From an uncultured Nitrospirota bacterium (GTDB taxonomy: Bacteria > CG2-30-53-67), in assembly GCA_947259355.1 (NCBI GenBank), contig CAMYMF010000024.1:1-32066 (forward strand): a stretch of 32,066 nucleotides of DNA. The letters are read 5' to 3'. The notes beneath the pieces were generated by a model that was not told the origin of the DNA, searched no databases, and saw nothing but the letters and a program-made list of their open reading frames with translations. Both the position numbers and the translations under genes were made by a program. Positions within the stretch are counted from its first letter, which is position 1. The number at the start of each line of letters is the position of its first letter. Shown here in pieces: positions 14,153-24,836 of this stretch.

Positions 14153-14180
14153 TTGACAACCCTACTCCGTATGATATAGT
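14153..14180 (+). promoter_or_regulatory. Promoter of the pyrimidine operon
   Basis: TTGACA (14153-14158) and TATAGT (14175-14180, five of six matches) are 16 nt apart. This is the clearest promoter in the window. The predicted start is near 14187, giving a leader of about 110 nt before pyrR. Confidence 0.75.
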
Positions 14181-14209
14181 AGCCCGGATTCGGATCAGAC
14201 GGAGCAACA

Positions 14210-14266
14210 ATGCGGATTCTTGTGGTAACGATTGAGGCGTCCAGCCCTCGCAGGCCTTCTTGCTGA
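14210..14266 (+). CDS. Candidate 18-aa pyr leader peptide
   Basis: ATG 14210 has GGAG at 14201-14204 with 5-nt spacing. The 18 codons end with TGA at 14264-14266, exactly in the loop of the intrinsic terminator (14252-14285). A ribosome finishing this peptide would cover the left stem and block the terminator. That resembles the coupling logic of the E. coli pyrBI leader, although no sequence similarity is claimed. It is too short for similarity-based proof. Confidence 0.5.
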   Translation: MRILVVTIEASSPRRPSC

Positions 14267-14285
14267 TTGGCAAGAGGCCTTTTTT
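14252..14285 (+). terminator. Attenuator terminator of the pyr operon
   Basis: AGGCCT-t-CTTGC (14252-14263), loop TGATTG, GCAAG-AGGCCT (14270-14280), and T6 (14280-14285) form an 11-bp stem with one bulged base. It lies between the promoter and pyrR, so it must be read through for operon expression. A GUCCAG hexamer (14240-14245) recalls the CCAGAG loop of PyrR-binding RNA, but the full PyrR consensus is not visible. Confidence 0.8.
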
Positions 14286-14298
14286 GTGGCCTGAAAAC

Positions 14299-14865
14299 AT
14301 GCCCCAGAACGCATCGAAAGGACCTTCCCGGGGTCTGATCATCGATAAAACGAGAATGGGTGAACTGGTTCAGGAGTTGGCCGATCGTATCGTGGCGGCC
14401 AATCCGGACCTGTCCGAGGTGACCCTCGTCGGGATCCGCACTCGGGGCACCCATCTGGCACGCCGCATCGCCGAGCGGGTCGCGAAAAGCGTCGGCCAGA
14501 CGGTACCGGTGGGTATTCTCGATATTACCCTCTACCGGGACGATCTGCGGGCCCGCATCGATCAGCCCGAACTGCTCCGAACGGAAATCCCCGGACCGGT
14601 GGAGGGGCACAACATCATCTTGGTGGATGATGTGCTTTTCACGGGGCGCACCATTCGGGCTGCTCTCGACGGCATCATGGACCTGGGGCGGGCCCGGAAG
14701 ATCCAGCTTGCCGTGCTGGTAGACCGGGGCCACCGGGAACTTCCCATCCGGGCCAATTACACCGGGCAGTACATCGAAACGACGCAGGACGAGACGGTTC
14801 GCGTCCGTTTCGTCGAAGACGGCGATGAGGACAGCGTCATTCTGCGGGAGATCCAAAGACCATAG
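14299..14865 (+). CDS. pyrR: PyrR, pyr attenuation protein / uracil phosphoribosyltransferase
   Basis: PyrR is a PRTase-fold protein that in many bacteria binds UMP and pyr leader RNA and can have uracil phosphoribosyltransferase activity. The protein has 188 residues. The PRPP-binding motif [14 protein letters not shown] is at about 105-118, and [14 protein letters not shown] and [12 protein letters not shown] are family blocks. I chose ATG 14299, which lies just after the terminator and gives the expected N-terminus [10 protein letters not shown]. The frame stays open upstream, but a TTG start at 14260 would lie inside the terminator. No clear ribosome site precedes 14299. The position directly after an attenuator supports autoregulation of the whole operon. 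Confidence 0.92.
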
Positions 14866-14959: not shown

Positions 14960-15886
14960 ATGGCGTGGGGAAAACGCAAAGACCTCCTGGGTATTGAAGA
15001 TCTCAGCCGGGATGAAATCGAAACCATCCTGGACACTGCCGAGTCCTTCAAAGAGGTCTCCCTTCGGGAAATTAAGAAAGTGCCGACCCTCCGTGGTACG
15101 ACGATCGTGAATCTCTTTCTCGAGCCGTCCACCCGGACGCGGACCTCCTTTGAGCTGGCAGGCAAGCGCCTCTCTGCGGACGTCATTAATGTCTCCGCAG
15201 CCAGCAGCAGTATTCTCAAAGGGGAAAGCCTCAAAGACACGGCTTGGAACATTGAGGCCATGAACACGGACATACTGGTCGTTCGCCATTCGGCGGCAGG
15301 GGCCGCGCACTTTCTCTCCAAAGTCCTTGACTGTTCGGTGATCAACGGCGGCGACGGCGCCCATGAGCATCCCAGCCAGGCCCTGCTCGACCTGTTCTCC
15401 ATCCGGGAGCGAAAGAAGCGGATCGAGGGGCTCACGGTCAGTATCATCGGCGATATCGCGCACAGTCGAGTAGCCCTCTCCAACATTCTGGCCCTTCAGA
15501 AGATGGGCGCTCGAGTGCGCATCGCGGGGCCGGCTACCATGATCCCCCTGGGCGTTGCATCCCTGGGGGTGGAAGTGACCTACGACATGGATGCGGCCAT
15601 CGAGGGAGCCGACGTGATCATGATGCTCCGAATTCAGAAGGAGCGTCAAGGCGCACACCTTTTCCCGTCGGTGCGGGAATATGCGACACATTTTGGGCTG
15701 AACCAGCAGCGGCTGCGGGGCGCAAAGAAGAACCTGCTCATCATGCATCCAGGACCGATCAATCGGGGCGTGGAGATCGCCCCCGACGTGGCCGACGGCC
15801 CCTACTCGATCATCCTCGACCAGGTCACCAACGGCGTGGCGGTGCGGATGGCCATTCTCTTTCTCTATTCGGGAGCGGCCCAATGA
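14960..15886 (+). CDS. pyrB: Aspartate carbamoyltransferase catalytic subunit
   Basis: PyrB condenses carbamoyl phosphate and aspartate to carbamoyl-aspartate. The 309-residue protein has the carbamoyl-phosphate loop [11 protein letters not shown] (Ser57-Thr60), [15 protein letters not shown], and the C-terminal [15 protein letters not shown] 14960 gives [15 protein letters not shown], a standard N-terminus, although the frame extends back into pyrR. The ribosome site is weak. It overlaps pyrC by ATGA at 15883-15886. No pyrI regulatory subunit is present; the linked pyrC suggests the type of ATCase that works with dihydroorotase rather than PyrI, which is an inference. Confidence 0.95.
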
Positions 15887-17181
15887 GTCTGATCATCAAA
15901 GGCGGCAGAGTCATAGACCCGGTGGGCGGCCTCGACCGGGTGTGCGATCTGGAGATTGACAAAGGCAGGATCGTGCGCACGGGCCGGGGATTGTCCGGGG
16001 AGCGGGTGCTCGAGGCCAGTGGGCTCTGGGTCCTGCCCGGTCTGATTGATATGCATGTGCACCTCCGGGAGCCCGGTTACGAATACAAGGAAACCATCGA
16101 GTCGGGTTCGCGGGCTGCCGCAGCCGGCGGGTTCACCGCGGTGGCCTGCATGGCCAACACCGATCCCGTCAACGACAACGGATCGGTGACGGATTTCATT
16201 CTCTCCCAGGCCCGCCGACGGGCTGCGGTGCGCATCTATCCTGTCGGTGCCCTGACGAAAAAGCTCAAGGGAGAGCAGCTTGCCGAGATCGCAGAGATGA
16301 AGGTCCGCGGGGTGGTGGCACTCAGTGATGACGGAGCCACCCCGATGAATGCGGAAGTCATGCGACGCGGCCTGGAGTATGCCAGCACCTTCGGACTGCC
16401 CGTCATCGCGCACTGTGACGATCAGAACCTGAGCCGCAAAGGCGTCATGCACGAAGGAGCGGTCTCCATGCGTCTCGGCCTGCCCGGCATTCCCGACGCA
16501 GCGGAGGCGTGCATTGTGGGCCGGGAAATTCTGCTCGCGGAGCTCACGGGCGCTGCACTGCACATCGCCCATGTGAGCAGCCGCCGTTCGGTGGCGCTCA
16601 TCCGCGGGGCCAAGGAACGCGGCGTGGCGGTGACGGCGGAGGTGACGCCGCACCATCTGACATTGAACGATGCCGCCCTGGCTGAATACGATACGAACCT
16701 CAAGGTCAGTCCGCCGCTGAGGACCGAGGCCGATCGACGGGCCCTCGTTGAAGGCTTGATCGATGGTACGCTCGATGCCGTTGCCAGCGACCATGCGCCC
16801 CACAATATTGCCGAGAAGGAAGTGGAGTTTGAGAACGCGGCCTTCGGGATGATCGGTCTCGAGACGTCCCTGCCGCTGCTGCTCCGTCTGGTGCATGCTG
16901 GCACGCTCACGCCATCCCAGCTTGTTCAGGTGATGGCGGTTGCGCCGGCCCGAATTCTTGGGCTTCCCGGTGGCACGCTCGGCAAGGGGGTGGATGCCGA
17001 TGTGTCGCTCGTCGATCCTGACCGCGTCTTCTCGGTGGATCCCCAGACACTGCTCTCCCGGAGTCGCAACACCCCCTTCGGCGGCTGGGAACTGAAAGGC
17101 AAGGCGGTCTGCACGCTGCTCCGGGGCAAGAAGGCCTACGAAGACCGAGAATGGAAGAGCCGTCAGAAGGTGTCGTCATGA
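15883..17181 (+). CDS. pyrC: Dihydroorotase
   Basis: PyrC cyclises carbamoyl-aspartate to dihydroorotate. The 432-residue amidohydrolase belongs to the long class typical of pyrB-linked genes. Zinc ligands His58 and His60 are in [10 protein letters not shown], further ligand regions are IAHCDDQN and LHIAHVSS, and the catalytic Asp is in ASDHAPHN. With these sites intact it is likely an active enzyme rather than a structural pseudo-dihydroorotase. Both ends overlap neighbours by ATGA (pyrB before, carA after), so translation is probably coupled. Confidence 0.95.
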
Positions 17182-18314
17182 AGGCAGCGCTGGCTCTGGC
17201 CGACGGCCGAATTTTCGAAGGCAAGGCATTGGGCGCCTCGGGAGAGACGGGCGGTGAGATCATTTTCAACACGTCCATGATGGGATATCAGGAGATCCTC
17301 ACCGATCCCTCCTATCAGGGGCAGATCATTACGATGACCTACCCGCTGATCGGCAATTACGGGACCAATAGGGAGGACGTGGAATCGGCAAGACCCTATG
17401 CGTCCGGTTTCGTGGTCAAGGAGGCGAGCGGTATTTCCAGTAACTGGCGCGCGGATTACTCCCTGGGCGACTACCTTCGGCGCCACGGCATCGTAGGTAT
17501 TCAGGGGGTCGACACGCGGGCGCTGACCCGGCACATTCGCGATCGCGGGGCTCAGCAGGCGGTCCTTTCCACAGAGTCTGTCGATCCCGCAACATTGGTT
17601 GCACGGGCGCAGGCCCGTCCCGCCATGGCGGGACAGGATCTCGTCCGGGAGGTGACCTGTACCGAACCCTATCGATGGGAGGAGTCCGAATGGGAATTGG
17701 GGCAGGGCTACCGTCCGGCGGGTGCTGCGCGATTTCGGGTGGTGGCCTTTGACTACGGGGTCAAACGCAACATCCTCCGGATACTGGCCGGTGCGGGGTG
17801 CCGAGTGACCGTGGTGCCCGCGACTACGAGCGCGGCGGCCGTGCTGGCCGAGGCGCCCGACGGGATCTTTCTCTCCAACGGTCCCGGCGACCCCGAACCG
17901 GTCACTTATGCCGTTGAGACCCTTCGCGAGCTGCTCGGGCGCAAACCGATTTTTGGTATCTGTCTGGGGCACCAGCTTCTGGGGCTGGCCCTGGGTGCGA
18001 GCACCTATAAGCTTAAGTTCGGGCATCACGGTGGGAACCAGCCGGTGATGGATCTCAAGACACGGAAGGTGGAGATCACGTCGCAGAATCACGGGTTTGC
18101 TATCCATCCTGACTCCCTGGCGGCCGCGGGCTCGGATTTGGAGCTGACCCACATCAACCTTAATGACCGGACGGTCGAGGGGCTGCGTCACCGGACGCTA
18201 CCGGTCTTTTCGGTGCAGTACCATCCCGAGTCGTCGCCCGGGCCGCACGATTCGCGGTATCTTTTTGACAGGTTTGTCGAGATGATGGAGGCCTTCAGAG
18301 AATCGCCAGGGTAG
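17178..18314 (+). CDS. carA: Carbamoyl-phosphate synthase small subunit
   Basis: CarA is the glutamine-hydrolysing subunit that passes ammonia to CarB. The 378-residue protein has the N-terminal CPSase small domain ([21 protein letters not shown]) and a class I glutamine amidotransferase domain. The nucleophile is Cys262 in GICLGHQ, and the His349/Glu351 pair is in [11 protein letters not shown] 17178 overlaps the pyrC stop (ATGA), with AAGGTG just upstream. It is complete, unlike the divergent carA fragment at the start of the window, and is therefore the organism's own gene. Confidence 0.96.
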
Positions 18315-18381: not shown

Positions 18382-19314
18382 ATGCGGGGGACCCAACAGG
18401 CGGCATCCTATCGGCACCTCAGCGAGGCGGCCTTTGCGAAAAGGGTGGAGCAAGCCTACGATCTGATGCGCCCCACGTGCCGGCTGTGTCCGAAAGCTTG
18501 CGGGGCGGAACGTCTGGCGGGCGAGCGCGGCGCGTGCGGCGCGACGGGACACCTCTTCGTCGCAAGCGTCAATCTGCACTTCGGGGAGGAGCCTCCCATT
18601 TCAGGCTGCCGCGGCTCGGGGACGATTTTTCTCACCCACTGCAACCTGGCGTGCGTCTATTGTCAGAATTATCCCATCAGCCAGTTGGGAAACGGGGCGC
18701 AGACAACACCCGGGGCCCTGGCTGAAAAGATGGTGGGCCTCCAGGCGCGCGGCGCTTACAATATCAACTGGGTGACGCCGACGCACCAAATTCCCCACCT
18801 GCTCGATGCCCTTCAGCGGGCGCGGCGGCTGGGTTTGGAAATTCCCATTGTGTACAACAGTAGCGGCTACGATTCGGTGGAGTCTTTGGCCCTGCTCGAA
18901 GGAATCGTCGACATCTATCTACCGGATATGCGCTATGCGGACGGACGCGTGTCGCAGCAGCTTTCAGGTGTCCCCGACTATCCCGACGTGAACCGGCGGG
19001 CCGTTGCGGAGATGCACCGTCAGGTGGGCGACCTCTGCATCGACGCCGAGGGCATCGCGGTGCGGGGCCTACTGGTGCGCCATCTGATCCTGCCCGGCGG
19101 ACGCTCCGGGACGGCCGACGTCCTGCGGCATCTGTCGCAGCGGATCTCGCCAAAGGCCTGGGTCAGTCTCATGAGCCAGTACTTTCCGGCCCACCGGGCA
19201 TCGGAAACGGAGGGCATGAACCGACGAATCACCCGCGAGGAATACGCGGCCGCCGAGGCGCTGCTCACGGCACACGGGCTGAGCCGGGGATGGGTGCAGG
19301 ACCTCGACGGATGA
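18382..19314 (+). CDS. PflX-type radical SAM protein (COG1313-like)
   Basis: The 310-residue protein belongs to the radical SAM proteins related to pyruvate formate-lyase activating enzymes. SAM-cluster cysteines are Cys87, Cys91 and Cys94 in [15 protein letters not shown] second N-terminal cysteine group, Cys33, Cys36, Cys40 and Cys52 (CRLCPKAC...GACGA), could hold another Fe-S cluster. Later motifs are [17 protein letters not shown] and VRHLILPGG. No reaction is established for this subfamily as far as I know. It is wedged between carA and carB, with 67-nt and 61-nt gaps, on the same strand, so it is transcribed with pyrimidine genes. No glycyl-radical enzyme partner is seen. Function unknown. 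Confidence 0.85.
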
Positions 19315-19375
19315 AGCCGAGAGAGTGCCCGTCGGCGGCAGAACTGATCCGTCTTTGATACAGGGCATTGAAACC

Positions 19376-22300
19376 ATGCCGAAACGAGACGACATCCAGA
19401 AGATACTCCTCATCGGATCGGGCCCCATTGTGATCGGGCAGGCCTGCGAATTCGATTACTCCGGCACCCAGGCGTGCAAGGCCCTGAAGGAGGAAGGCTA
19501 CACGGTGGTTCTGGTGAACAGCAATCCCGCAACCATCATGACGGATCCCGACTTCGCGGACCGGACCTACATCGAACCGATTACGCCGGCTGTGGTGGAG
19601 AAGATCATTGCGGCGGAACGGCCCGATGCCTTGCTGCCGACCATGGGGGGCCAGACGGCGCTGAATGTCACCATGGAACTGGAGTCCTCGGGTGTCCTGA
19701 AACGCCACGGGGTGCGCCTGATCGGCGCCGATGTGGCGGCCATCCACAAAGCTGAAGACCGGGAAGCCTTCCGGGAAGCCATGCAGCGGATCGGGTTGGC
19801 CCTGCCGAGGAGTATCTATGTGAAGAGCCGCCAGGAGGCCCGGGCGGCGGCGGCGGAGATCGGATTCCCGAGCATCATCCGGCCGTCCTTCACCCTGGGC
19901 GGGACCGGGGGCAATGTGGCCTTTAACGAGGAACAGTTCGAAGCGTATGTGGAGTGGGGGCTCGATGTCAGCCCTGTGCATCAACTCCTCATCGAGGAAT
20001 CTGTGCTCGGTTGGAAGGAGTTCGAGCTGGAGGTGATGCGGGACCGCAAGGACAATGTGGTCATCATCTGCTCCATCGAGAATCTCGATCCCATGGGGGT
20101 GCACACCGGTGACAGCATCACCGTGGCCCCAGCCCAGACCCTCACCGACAAGGAATACCAGATCATGCGGGACGCGGCCATTGCGATCATCCGGGAGATC
20201 GGCGTCGACACGGGGGGCTCCAATGTTCAGTTTGCCGTGCATCCCGAGGACGGCCGTTTGGTGGTGATCGAAATGAACCCTCGCGTCTCGCGCTCCTCAG
20301 CGCTGGCTTCAAAGGCGACGGGCTTTCCCATTGCCAAGATTGCCGCCAAACTGGCCGTGGGCTACACGCTGGACGAGATCACCAATGACATTACGAAAGA
20401 GACGCCCGCGTCCTTCGAACCGGTTCTCGACTACTGTGTGGTCAAATTTCCCCGCTTCACCTTTGAGAAGTTCGCCCAGACCGACGACACCCTGACCACC
20501 CAGATGAAGTCGGTGGGGGAGGCCATGGCCATCGGTCGCACCTTCAAGGAAGCGCTGCAAAAGGCGATCCGCTCCATGGAGATCGACAGCCACGGGTTCG
20601 AATCCCGGCCGCATACGGGGGAGGCGCTGCGGGAAAAGCTCCGGACTCCCTGTGCCGATCGGCTCTGGTACATCGGGCAGGCCCTGCGAGACGGCATGGG
20701 CCTTGACGAAATTTACGAGCTTTCAAAGATCGACCGGTGGTTTCTGTTTAACATTCAGGAGATCATCCGGTTTGAATCGGCCTTGCGGGAGGCGCACGAG
20801 CTGACGGTTCTACTGCGGGAAGCCAAGACCCTCGGTTTTTCCGACCGGCGCATCGCAGAGATCCGGGGGGTACCCGAGCGAACGGTGCGGGAAATGCGGC
20901 GCAGCGAGGGAATTCAGGCGACCTTCAAGACCGTTGACACCTGTGCTGCAGAGTTCGAGGCCTACACGCCCTATCTCTACTCCACCTATGAATCGGAGTG
21001 CGAGGCCGGCCCCACGATGCGCCGCAAGGTCATGATTCTCGGCGGGGGGCCCAACCGGATCGGCCAGGGCATCGAGTTCGACTACTGTTGTGTCCATGCC
21101 TCCTTCGCGCTGCAGGAGATCGGTTACGAGTCGATCATGGTCAACTGCAATCCCGAGACGGTGAGCACCGACTACGACACCTCCGATCGACTCTACTTCG
21201 AACCGCTGACCCTGGAGGACGTGCTGGAGATCATCCGGGTGGAAAAGCCCGACGGGGTGCTGCTACAGTACGGGGGGCAGACCCCTCTCAAGCTGGCGGT
21301 GCCTCTGGAACAGGAGGGGGTTCCCATCATCGGAACCTCGCCGGATGCCATCGATCGGGCAGAAGACCGGGAGCGTTTCCAGAAGTTGCTCCGCAAGCTC
21401 GGCCTGAAGCAGCCCGACAACGGCACCGCTACGTCGTTGGCCGAAGCGCTCGAAATTGCGCGGGACATCGGCTATCCCGTGGTGGTGCGGCCCTCCTACG
21501 TGCTGGGCGGGCGCGCCATGAGCATTGTCTTCAATGACGGGGACCTGGAGGCATATATGGCCTCCGCAGTGCGTGCCTCCTCGGAGCATCCGGTGCTGCT
21601 CGATCGTTTTGTCATGAACGCGACCGAGATTGACGTCGATGCCATCTCCGACGGTACCGATGTGGTCATCGGGGGGATCATGGAGCATATCGAGGAGGCC
21701 GGCATTCACTCGGGCGATTCCGCCTGCTCCCTCCCGCCCTATTCCCTCAAACCGCAGGTGCTCGATGAGATCCGCCGTCAGACGGTGGCCCTTGCGGGGG
21801 AGCTGCAGGTGGTGGGTCTCATGAACATCCAGTATGCCGTTCAGGATGACGAGATCTTTGTGCTGGAGGTGAACCCCCGCGCGTCCCGGACTGTTCCCTT
21901 CGTGAGCAAAGCCATCGGTGTGCCGCTGGCCAAACTGGGTGCCAAGGTGATGACGGGAATGCGTTTGGCGGAACTGGGATTTACCGAGGAACGGAGCATC
22001 CCTTATTTCTGCGTGAAGGAGGCGGTGTTTCCCTTTCTGAAATTTCCCGGTGTGGACACGTTGCTGAGCCCTGAGATGAAATCGACGGGCGAGGTCATGG
22101 GAATCGATCGGCGTTTCGGCAGCGCCTTCGCCAAGTCGCAGATTGGTGCGGGCACCCTGTTGCCGACATCGGGCAAAGCCTTTGTCAGCGTGCGGGACAC
22201 GGACAAGCAGCGGGTACTGCCGACGGTGCGCAAGCTTGTGGATCTGGGCTTTGAGATCGTTGCGACCCGCGGGACCGCAGCATTCCTGCGGGAGCATGGG

Positions 22301-22585
22301 GTCGCCGCGCAAGTTGTCAACAAAGTCCTGGAGGGACCGCCGCACATTGTGGACGGCATCACCGGGCGCGAAATCGCCATGGTTATCAACACACCGACAG
22401 GATTGGCCGCGGAGCAGGATTCGTTCTCCATTCGACGGTCCGCGTTGACCTACTTCATCCCCTATTTCACAACCGTCGCCGGAGCACGGGAGGCGGTGAA
22501 CGGGATAGAAGCCATGGCTGCGGAGGAATTGAAGATCTGCCCCATCCAGGAATACCATCGCACGGGAGGAGAGACAAAGTCATGA
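19376..22585 (+). CDS. carB: Carbamoyl-phosphate synthase large subunit
   Basis: CarB makes carbamoyl phosphate from bicarbonate, ammonia and two ATP. The 1069-residue protein is the normal length (E. coli 1073) with duplicated ATP-grasp halves. Each half opens with a GPxxIGQxxEFDYxxxxA block ([18 protein letters not shown] and [16 protein letters not shown]). ATP-grasp motifs include [12 protein letters not shown] and [12 protein letters not shown]. The C-terminal MGS-like regulatory domain starts near [16 protein letters not shown] 19376 gives [16 protein letters not shown], the standard start. The end overlaps greA by ATGA. The MGS-like domain is the usual site for allosteric ligands such as UMP. 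Confidence 0.97.
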
Positions 22586-23079
22586 TGCCGGGAAAAGTGC
22601 CCATGACGCCCGCGGGGCATGAGATTCTCAAGGAGCAGTTGCGCCGCCTCATGAATGAAGAGCGGCCCAAGGTCGTGCGTGAGATTGAAGAAGCGCGTTC
22701 CCACGGCGATCTGAGTGAGAATGCCGAATACCATGCCGCCAAGGAGCGGCAGGGCTACATCGAAGGACGCATTGCCGAACTGAACGCCAAGCTTGCACGG
22801 GCGGAGGTGATCGCCCCGTCCAAGATCCGCACCGACCGCGTCAGTTTTGGCTCCGTGGTAACCCTCGTGAATGCGGCCACCGACGAAGAGGTGACCTATC
22901 AGCTCGTGGGTGAAGAAGAGGCCGACATCAGCGACGGGAAGATCTCCGTCTACTCACCGGTGGCCAGGGCTCTCATTGGAAAAGAGGTCGGGGAAGAAGT
23001 GGAGGTGCGGGCCCCCGGCGGTATCATTGGCTACGAAATCCTAGATATTCAATGTCCTTCTTTCCCATCCGACAAGTAA
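22582..23079 (+). CDS. greA: Transcript cleavage factor GreA
   Basis: GreA enters the RNA polymerase secondary channel and stimulates cleavage of backtracked RNA. The 165-residue protein has the N-terminal coiled coil with the acidic tip [16 protein letters not shown] (Asp43, Glu46), then the C-terminal FKBP-like domain ([29 protein letters not shown]). The start is ATG 22582 or 22585 (tandem ATG ATG), the first overlapping the carB stop. The C-terminus runs 28 nt into pyrK. Placing greA directly after carB is a familiar arrangement in several bacterial groups. Confidence 0.95.
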
Positions 23080-23864
23080 CGGCCCGGGTGACGGGAAACG
23101 ATCCCGTGGGCGAAGCCACCTTTCGGCTGATTCTCTCGGCGACAGACTTCCCCCCGACGGCTGCGCCTGGTCAGTTTGTTATGCTCCGGACCTCCGCCGG
23201 TGCAGACCCGATGCTGCGGCGGGCCTTCTCCTTGCACGATCGGCAGGAAGGTTCCCTGGAGATTCTCTATAAGGTCGTGGGCCGGGGGACGGCTTGGATG
23301 GCGCAACGGCGCACGGGGGATGCCATTGACTTGATCGGCCCCCTGGGACAGGGGTTTGCCATAGCACCCACGCTGCGCACAGCGCTTCTTGTTGCGGGGG
23401 GCATGGGGATTGCGCCGTTTCGGTTTCTGATCCGATCGCTGAGAGCCGCGGGGGTCGACATGCTTCTCTTCTACGGCGCGCGCACGGAAAGGGATCTGCT
23501 GGAACTGGCAGAGATGGAAGCGGCCGGCGTTTCCCTGCTGCTTGCCACCGAGGACGGCAGCCGGGGGGAGAGGGGTCGCATTACGGAGCTTTTCCAGCAA
23601 CACTTCCGCAAGGTGGAACCGTCGGAGGCGTTCAAGATCTTCGCGTGCGGTCCCCACGAGATGCTCTACGAAGTAGGCCGCATTGCGCGGGGCCAGGCCA
23701 TTGCCTGCGAAGTCTCGCTGGAGTCTCACATGGCCTGCGGCCTGGGAACGTGTATGGGCTGCGTCATCGCCACAGAGGATGGGTACCAGCGGGTTTGCCG
23801 CGAGGGACCCGTCTTCTCGGCCCAGCGCTTGCTCCTGGATGAAATCTCTCTCGCGCAGGACTAA
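23052..23864 (+). CDS. pyrK: Dihydroorotate dehydrogenase electron transfer subunit PyrK
   Basis: PyrK carries FAD and a 2Fe-2S cluster and passes electrons from PyrD FMN to NAD+. The 270-residue protein has the FAD motif RRAFSLHD (about 56-63), the NAD-binding segment LLVAGGMGIAPFRFL, and the Fe-S cysteines Cys229, Cys234, Cys237 and Cys249 (MACGLGTCMGCVI...RVC). ATG 23052 gives [13 protein letters not shown], in line with the family, and makes a 28-nt overlap with greA. The next gene, pyrD, is 30 nt downstream and supplies the catalytic subunit. Confidence 0.95.
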   Translation: MSFFPIRQVTARVTGNDPVGEATFRLILSATDFPPTAAPGQFVMLRTSAGADPMLRRAFSLHDRQEGSLEILYKVVGRGTAWMAQRRTGDAIDLIGPLGQGFAIAPTLRTALLVAGGMGIAPFRFLIRSLRAAGVDMLLFYGARTERDLLELAEMEAAGVSLLLATEDGSRGERGRITELFQQHFRKVEPSEAFKIFACGPHEMLYEVGRIARGQAIACEVSLESHMACGLGTCMGCVIATEDGYQRVCREGPVFSAQRLLLDEISLAQD

Positions 23865-23894: not shown

Positions 23895-24836
23895 ATGATG
23901 AATGTGAGCAAATCGGCGCCGGAGCTTTCCGTTGAGATCGCAGGGATCCGGATGAAGAATCCTGTTTTAACGGCGTCGGGGACTTTTGGTTACGGCGAAG
24001 AAATGGCGCAGATCTACGACCTCTCACAGCTCGGCGCCCTCACGGTCAAAGGGCTTTCCCTCCGCCCGCAAACCGGAAACCGGCCCCCCCGAATCTGCGA
24101 GACCCCGGCGGGGATGCTCAATTCCATCGGTCTGCAGAATATCGGCGTCGAGGCCTTCGTACGCGACAAACTGCCTTTCCTGCGCCGCATCGATACCCGG
24201 GTGCTCGCCAACATCTACGGACACAGCGCCGAGGAATATGCCGCGGTGGCCGGCATCCTCGACGGGGCCGACGGTGTCGATGGTATCGAGCTCAATATTT
24301 CCTGTCCCAATGTAAAGAAGGGGGGGATGGCCTTCGGCACCGATCGTGCCGAGACGGGTCGCGTGGTGCGGCTTGCACGCAAGGCCACGGGGCTGCCGCT
24401 CATTGTCAAGCTTTCACCCAACGTCACCGATATCACCGAGATCGCGCGGGCCGCGGAGGGTGAAGGCGCAGACGCCTTATCGCTCATCAACACCTTGCTG
24501 GGAATGGCCGTCGATATTGATCGGAAAAAACCGCGCCTCTCCCGGGGGGTCGGTGGACTGTCGGGTCCGGCCATCCGGCCGGTGGCTCTGCGCATGGTCT
24601 ACCAGGTGTCTCGGGTCACAGAGCTACCCGTCATCGGCATGGGGGGAATTGTCTGTGCCGAGGATGCCATCGCCTTCCTGCTCGTCGGCGCTTCTGCGGT
24701 GTCGGTGGGGACCGCCAATTTTGTCGACCCCCTCTGCCCCCTGGAGATGATTACAGGAATCGAGGCGTACCTGAAGGAACATGGACATACCCGCGTCCAG
24801 GAGCTGGTGGGCGCGCTGGAGATGGAACAAGTATGA
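23895..24836 (+). CDS. pyrD: Dihydroorotate dehydrogenase, catalytic subunit (class 1B)
   Basis: PyrD oxidises dihydroorotate to orotate with FMN. The 313-residue protein is the class 1B type, shown by its catalytic Cys137 in NISCPNVKKGG and its partner pyrK. Other motifs are NPVLTASGTFGYG, KGLSLRPQTGN, ETPAGMLNSIGLQN and PVIGMGGIV. Tandem ATGs at 23895 and 23898 are both possible. GAGGA (23886-23890) is 4 nt from the first and 7 nt from the second, so 23898 may be preferred. It overlaps the next gene by ATGA. pyrE and pyrF, needed for UMP, lie elsewhere. Confidence 0.95.
   Translation: MMNVSKSAPELSVEIAGIRMKNPVLTASGTFGYGEEMAQIYDLSQLGALTVKGLSLRPQTGNRPPRICETPAGMLNSIGLQNIGVEAFVRDKLPFLRRIDTRVLANIYGHSAEEYAAVAGILDGADGVDGIELNISCPNVKKGGMAFGTDRAETGRVVRLARKATGLPLIVKLSPNVTDITEIARAAEGEGADALSLINTLLGMAVDIDRKKPRLSRGVGGLSGPAIRPVALRMVYQVSRVTELPVIGMGGIVCAEDAIAFLLVGASAVSVGTANFVDPLCPLEMITGIEAYLKEHGHTRVQELVGALEMEQV

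Follow-up and report, generated by a model that had tools for sequence, protein, structure and literature searches.

The pyrimidine genes in the window (the whole stretch of 32,066 nucleotides analysed here) lie in the order lepA-like, lepB, promoter and leader, pyrR-pyrB-pyrC-carA, a radical-SAM gene, carB, greA, pyrK and pyrD, all on the forward strand (Table 1). The radical-SAM gene is of the PFL-activating or AmmeMemoRadiSam kind, and greA, which encodes a factor rescuing paused polymerase, sits within the pyr operon. The sequence-only reading of this DNA had described a strong promoter followed by a short ORF with a ribosome site, and each of these elements was confirmed. The hairpin of the intrinsic terminator ahead of pyrR (−16.0 kcal/mol, one bulged U) begins ~66 nt from the likely transcription start, making this a short leader, and the stop codon of the leader ORF falls 11 nt into its stem. 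The TGA had been placed exactly in the terminator loop; this holds for its G and A, but the T pairs as a T.G wobble that closes the stem. Folding of the whole leader was unremarkable (z = −0.43), leaving the terminator as the only strong structure, and a by-eye search found no conserved upstream antiterminator partner for its 5' arm.

Table 1 Features of the pyr leader and operon in the window, and the PyrR hairpins of the sister family.
Feature	Position	Strand	Details
Sigma-70 type promoter	14153–14180	+	TTGACA-16-TATAGT, extended −10 TG; 11/12 consensus
Shine-Dalgarno sequence of leader ORF	14201–14204	+	GGAG; 6/6 family genomes have GGAG or AGGA here
Leader ORF	ATG 14210 to TGA 14264–14266	+	18 codons, MRILVVTIEASSPRRPSC then stop
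Invariant motif	14253–14267	+	GGCCTTCTTGCTGAT; spans the 5' arm of the terminator, the stop codon and the loop
Intrinsic terminator (attenuator)	14253–14279 (hairpin), 14280–14285 (U-tract)	+	U-tract TTTTTT
pyrR	14299–14865	+	PyrR-family uracil phosphoribosyltransferase without R15, R19 and H22; NCBIfam NF003549, 200.5 bits (cut-off 138)
pyrB	14960–15886	+	Aspartate carbamoyltransferase
pyrC	15883–17181	+	Dihydroorotase
carA	17178–18314	+	
Radical-SAM gene	18382–19314	+	No NCBIfam model above cut-off
carB	19370–22585	+	
greA	22582–23079	+	
pyrK	23052–23864	+	
pyrD	23895–24836	+	
Sister-family PyrR hairpins	L007 2115–2154; L008 2124–2163	−	Below the Rfam threshold (30.1 bits)

The collection contained only eight genomes of the class of the source genome, six from the window's own family (three genera) and two from a sister family, and support for the leader comes from just these six related genomes, all fragmented assemblies. 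TTGACA with its 16-nt spacer, the ribosome site and the ATG were kept in all six. The leader ORF, whose conservation in relatives had been put forward as a check, was likewise present in 6/6, starting 38–43 nt before the terminator stem and running for 18, 18, 18, 18, 17 and 12 codons. Its stop codon lay inside the hairpin in five genomes, where the codons end in RPSC-TGA; in the sixth (G002) the frame is shifted and a 12-codon ORF ends at a TAG 2 nt before the stem. Hairpin energies ranged from −16.0 to −17.8 kcal/mol. The 15 bases of GGCCTTCTTGCTGAT were identical in all six genomes and the 3' arm of the terminator was variable (GGCAAGAGGCC, CAGCAGGGGGGC, AGCAGGAGGCC) yet still pairing. The motif is single-copy in each genome except for one chance copy in G002; that copy sits inside a coding sequence, and a GGCCTTCTTGCTGAT regulon was rejected.

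When the window's leader was shuffled with dinucleotide composition preserved, 5.9% of the shuffled leaders gave an ORF ending at the terminator, and across the six family genomes this chance was 3–12% per genome. One such ORF on its own is therefore weak evidence. Taking one value per genus, and if the genera are independent, the joint chance was ~2 × 10^−4, and the occurrence of the arrangement in six genomes of three genera is well beyond chance. This bears on the simplest alternative, in which the terminator is constitutive and unregulated, the ORF is meaningless and regulation lies elsewhere, for example in UTP-dependent choice of start site or slippage. The single-genome chances are compatible with it, and both genomes of genus g3 (leaders L003 and L005) start near GATTTAG or AATTTG(G), which we take to resemble the UTP-sensitive start region of E. 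coli pyrBI and which could add slippage control. The same layout in three genera, built around an invariant 15-base core, nevertheless makes this alternative unlikely.

Apart from its two ends, with MR.L shared by two genera and RPSC by five genomes, the leader peptide is not conserved. Between G000 and G001, 4/5 differing codons are non-synonymous as read from the sequence. Because the changes between close relatives are mostly of this kind, selection seemingly does not act on the peptide as such, whereas it mostly does on the start, frame and end; divergence of the peptide in close pairs is what would be expected if only the position of the ribosome counts. Ribosome position, and not peptide content, thus appears from these comparisons to be the thing that matters. 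Arrest by the nascent peptide, in which a ribosome stalling at RPSC-stop senses a pyrimidine or other small molecule and blocks the terminator, could draw on the identity of RPSC-TGA in 5/6 genomes. However, G002 retains the nucleotide motif even though it is out of frame there, suggesting a nucleic-acid constraint beyond codons, and a constraint on DNA or RNA can explain the conservation. With the remainder of the peptide unconserved as well, we consider such arrest rather improbable.

We searched the leader for a PyrR RNA element using the Rfam covariance model RF00515, whose positive controls (B. subtilis, Thermus and Lactococcus) were matched. There was no match in the window's leader up to E = 10, gathering-threshold and permissive Rfam scans gave no credible family, and at its E-value limit the model found nothing in any of the eight class genomes. 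Elsewhere, it detected the element in 11/60 genomes of the relatives set and in 30/40 genomes with close PyrR relatives. A hairpin-only model, built from 34 PyrR loops and run with filters off at full sensitivity, had no match in the six family leaders, its best score at a family locus (9.9 bits) falling outside the leader. No PyrR-binding hairpin with a UCCNGNGAGG loop was detectable in the leader of the window, bearing out the earlier remark that no classic PyrR-binding loop was evident, although a terminator does stand between promoter and pyr genes, as in PyrR attenuators. Genome-wide searches were uninformative, the short PyrR loop motif being too common and the 40-nt hairpin model too weak.

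The protein itself points the same way. The product of pyrR belongs to the PyrR family, scoring above the curated cut-off and retaining an intact PRPP-binding motif. R15, R19 and H22 (B. subtilis numbering), which we take from mutagenesis work to contact the RNA, were present in 41/41 PyrR from genomes with RF00515 (one with Y22), an association examined here directly. Among the six PyrR of the window's family, none has R15 or H22 and a single one has R19; position 15 is E, A or G, position 19 is E, D, Q or R, and position 22 is D, A or E. Outside the class, only 3/102 PyrR lacked R19 or H/Y22, and both sister-family proteins keep R, R and H. No upp gene scored above cut-off in the eight class genomes, compared with 11/14 control genomes. 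Together with the intact PRPP motif, this suggests that PyrR probably serves these cells as their uracil phosphoribosyltransferase, and we infer that it was probably kept as that enzyme.

Attenuation could still depend on PyrR if its binding hairpin had diverged so far that both models missed it. In keeping with this, pyrR is the first gene and the 5' arm CCTTCTTGC resembles the terminator arms of PyrR-type leaders elsewhere, possibly as a relic. The absence of any RF00515 match to E = 10, the silence of the hairpin-only model in a leader whose sister-family counterparts it recognises, and the loss of R15, R19 and H22 render this distinctly improbable.

In the sister family, the hairpin-only model identified the PyrR hairpin in both leaders (34.3 bits in L007, 25.6 bits in L008). 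These leaders fold exactly like the Rfam hairpin and are without a terminator. The 3' strand of the hairpin holds AAAGGG, the ribosome site for a leader ORF whose end lies at the pyrR start and, in G007, overlaps it. The hairpin would hide this ribosome site, making it a candidate PyrR translational switch. It seems to resemble the translational repression by PyrR reported for Mycobacterium smegmatis, and is absent in the window's family. In the sister-family genome G006, the pyr leader is closely preceded by an RNase P RNA gene, cut by the contig end (L007 2259–2532, minus strand).

Taken together, we favour a ribosome-controlled transcription attenuator, acting through the short leader ORF in a pyrBI-like manner and having replaced control by PyrR, as the probable explanation. 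Translation-coupled attenuation, which the sequence-only reading had suggested, thus stands as the best-supported interpretation; its further suggestion of a mix of E. coli pyrBI-type and Bacillus-type logics does not. Of the two findings named beforehand as counting against the attenuation reading, a PyrR element in the covariance search and loss of the ORF in relatives, neither was observed. A PyrR without the element-linked residues next to a leader without the element argues for replacement of one mechanism by the other. We infer that the leader ORF is translated and that the ribosome blocks the hairpin. Whenever RNA polymerase outpaces the first ribosome, the hairpin would form and transcription would stop at the U-tract before pyrR. 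With a slow polymerase, for which low UTP is the most plausible cause by analogy with pyrBI, the first ribosome would reach codons 14–18 or wait at the TGA in the loop. Given the position of the stop, 11 nt inside the stem, a ribosome at the last codons or the stop would cover both arms with its footprint, and the operon would be transcribed. Termination would be the default state, with read-through needing a slow polymerase, and PyrR, whose site and RNA-contact residues this family has lost, would not be involved in binding RNA.

Work in E. coli shows that translating ribosomes repress a terminator almost completely if it lies only a few bases from the stop codon, that this effect has faded by ~30 nt, and that it is weaker for terminators located within the first 100 bp of a coding region, unless the polymerase pauses (PMC4824070). 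The short leader and the terminator within the first 100 bp thus count against the proposed attenuator, as do the frame shift in G002 and the sequence upstream of the stem, which is T-rich in genus g3 only and has no long U-tract like that of E. coli pyrL in the other two genera. The conserved GGCCTTCTTGC before T fits 5/6 positions of the elemental-pause consensus, some features of which are given in PMC12288461, and other 5/6 matches occur in several leaders. It is conceivable, albeit doubtful, that GGCCTTCTTGCTGAT arose from a PyrR-type terminator once PyrR had lost its hold on RNA, and that it now combines three functions in one small sensor: a pause at GGCCTTCTTGC, where the next base is U and UTP supply would set the pause; the 5' arm of the terminator; and the last codons of the ribosome together with the stop in the loop.

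The likeness to E. coli pyrBI, whose attenuator lies within the pyrL leader ORF and works by ribosome repression (PMC5021804), extends to the promoter, a short ORF bearing a Shine-Dalgarno sequence, an intrinsic terminator overlapping that ORF, the first structural genes of UMP synthesis, and the lack of a repressor element. In contrast to pyrL, read directly from E. coli K-12, the window's ORF has 18 codons rather than 44, its stop is in the terminator loop and not ~20 nt beyond the U-tract, a clear U-rich pause tract is lacking in two of the family's three genera, and the operon begins with pyrR. The leader would work like pyrBI and we call it pyrBI-like, since full membership of that class would need a UTP response and a pause. 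With Bacillus-type PyrR attenuation (RF00515) it shares a pyr operon with pyrR first, a terminator in the leader and similar terminator arm sequence; it differs in having no PyrR-binding hairpin, in a PyrR without R15, R19 and H22, and in a putatively translated ORF in place of the antiterminator. Classical amino-acid attenuation through slow codons also places a short leader ORF ahead of a terminator, but is highly improbable here, as none of the six peptides has a run of a single amino acid, the 5' arm has no conserved antiterminator partner, and the stop is inside the terminator, whereas terminators of amino-acid attenuators lie >20 bp away (PMC4824070).

One small class therefore offers a case in which the RNA site of an RNA-binding regulator and the RNA-contact residues of the protein vanish together, with PyrR surviving, probably as an enzyme, whilst an attenuator of minimal length run by the ribosome would take over. 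With two homologous operons, in the window's family and the sister family, this change of pyrimidine control can be tested. A further caution is that the regulatory part of the annotation ‘bifunctional pyr operon regulator PyrR’ can be wrong. In Pseudomonas, pyrR operons have a pyrR that is not known to act in RNA binding and a pyrBI-like leader peptide with an attenuator, and may be a precedent in a lineage unrelated to the window's family; for this reason we regard the novelty as moderate. Our literature searches returned no text on Pseudomonas pyrR leaders.

A wider survey of leaders, run with loose rules and with at least one locus mis-oriented, and hence of qualitative use only, indicated that an ORF with a Shine-Dalgarno sequence ending near a terminator occurs at other pyrR loci as well, although only at a minority. 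In G013, whose PyrR is without H22, a 9-codon ORF ends ~12 nt before the leader terminator and there is no PyrR hairpin; this site lies ~100 nt upstream of where the conserved PyrR region begins (L023). It is possible that G013 represents a second case of the same switch in a separate lineage.

Directly after the U-tract (14286–14288 in the window), an ATG or GTG out of the pyrR frame was found in 6/6 family genomes. The 3' arm of the terminator supplies it with SD-like purines, and the pyrR ATG (14299) itself is without a Shine-Dalgarno sequence. In G000 and G001 this start opens a 2-codon ORF ending 4 nt before pyrR, and in G004 a 5-codon ORF that overlaps the pyrR ATG.
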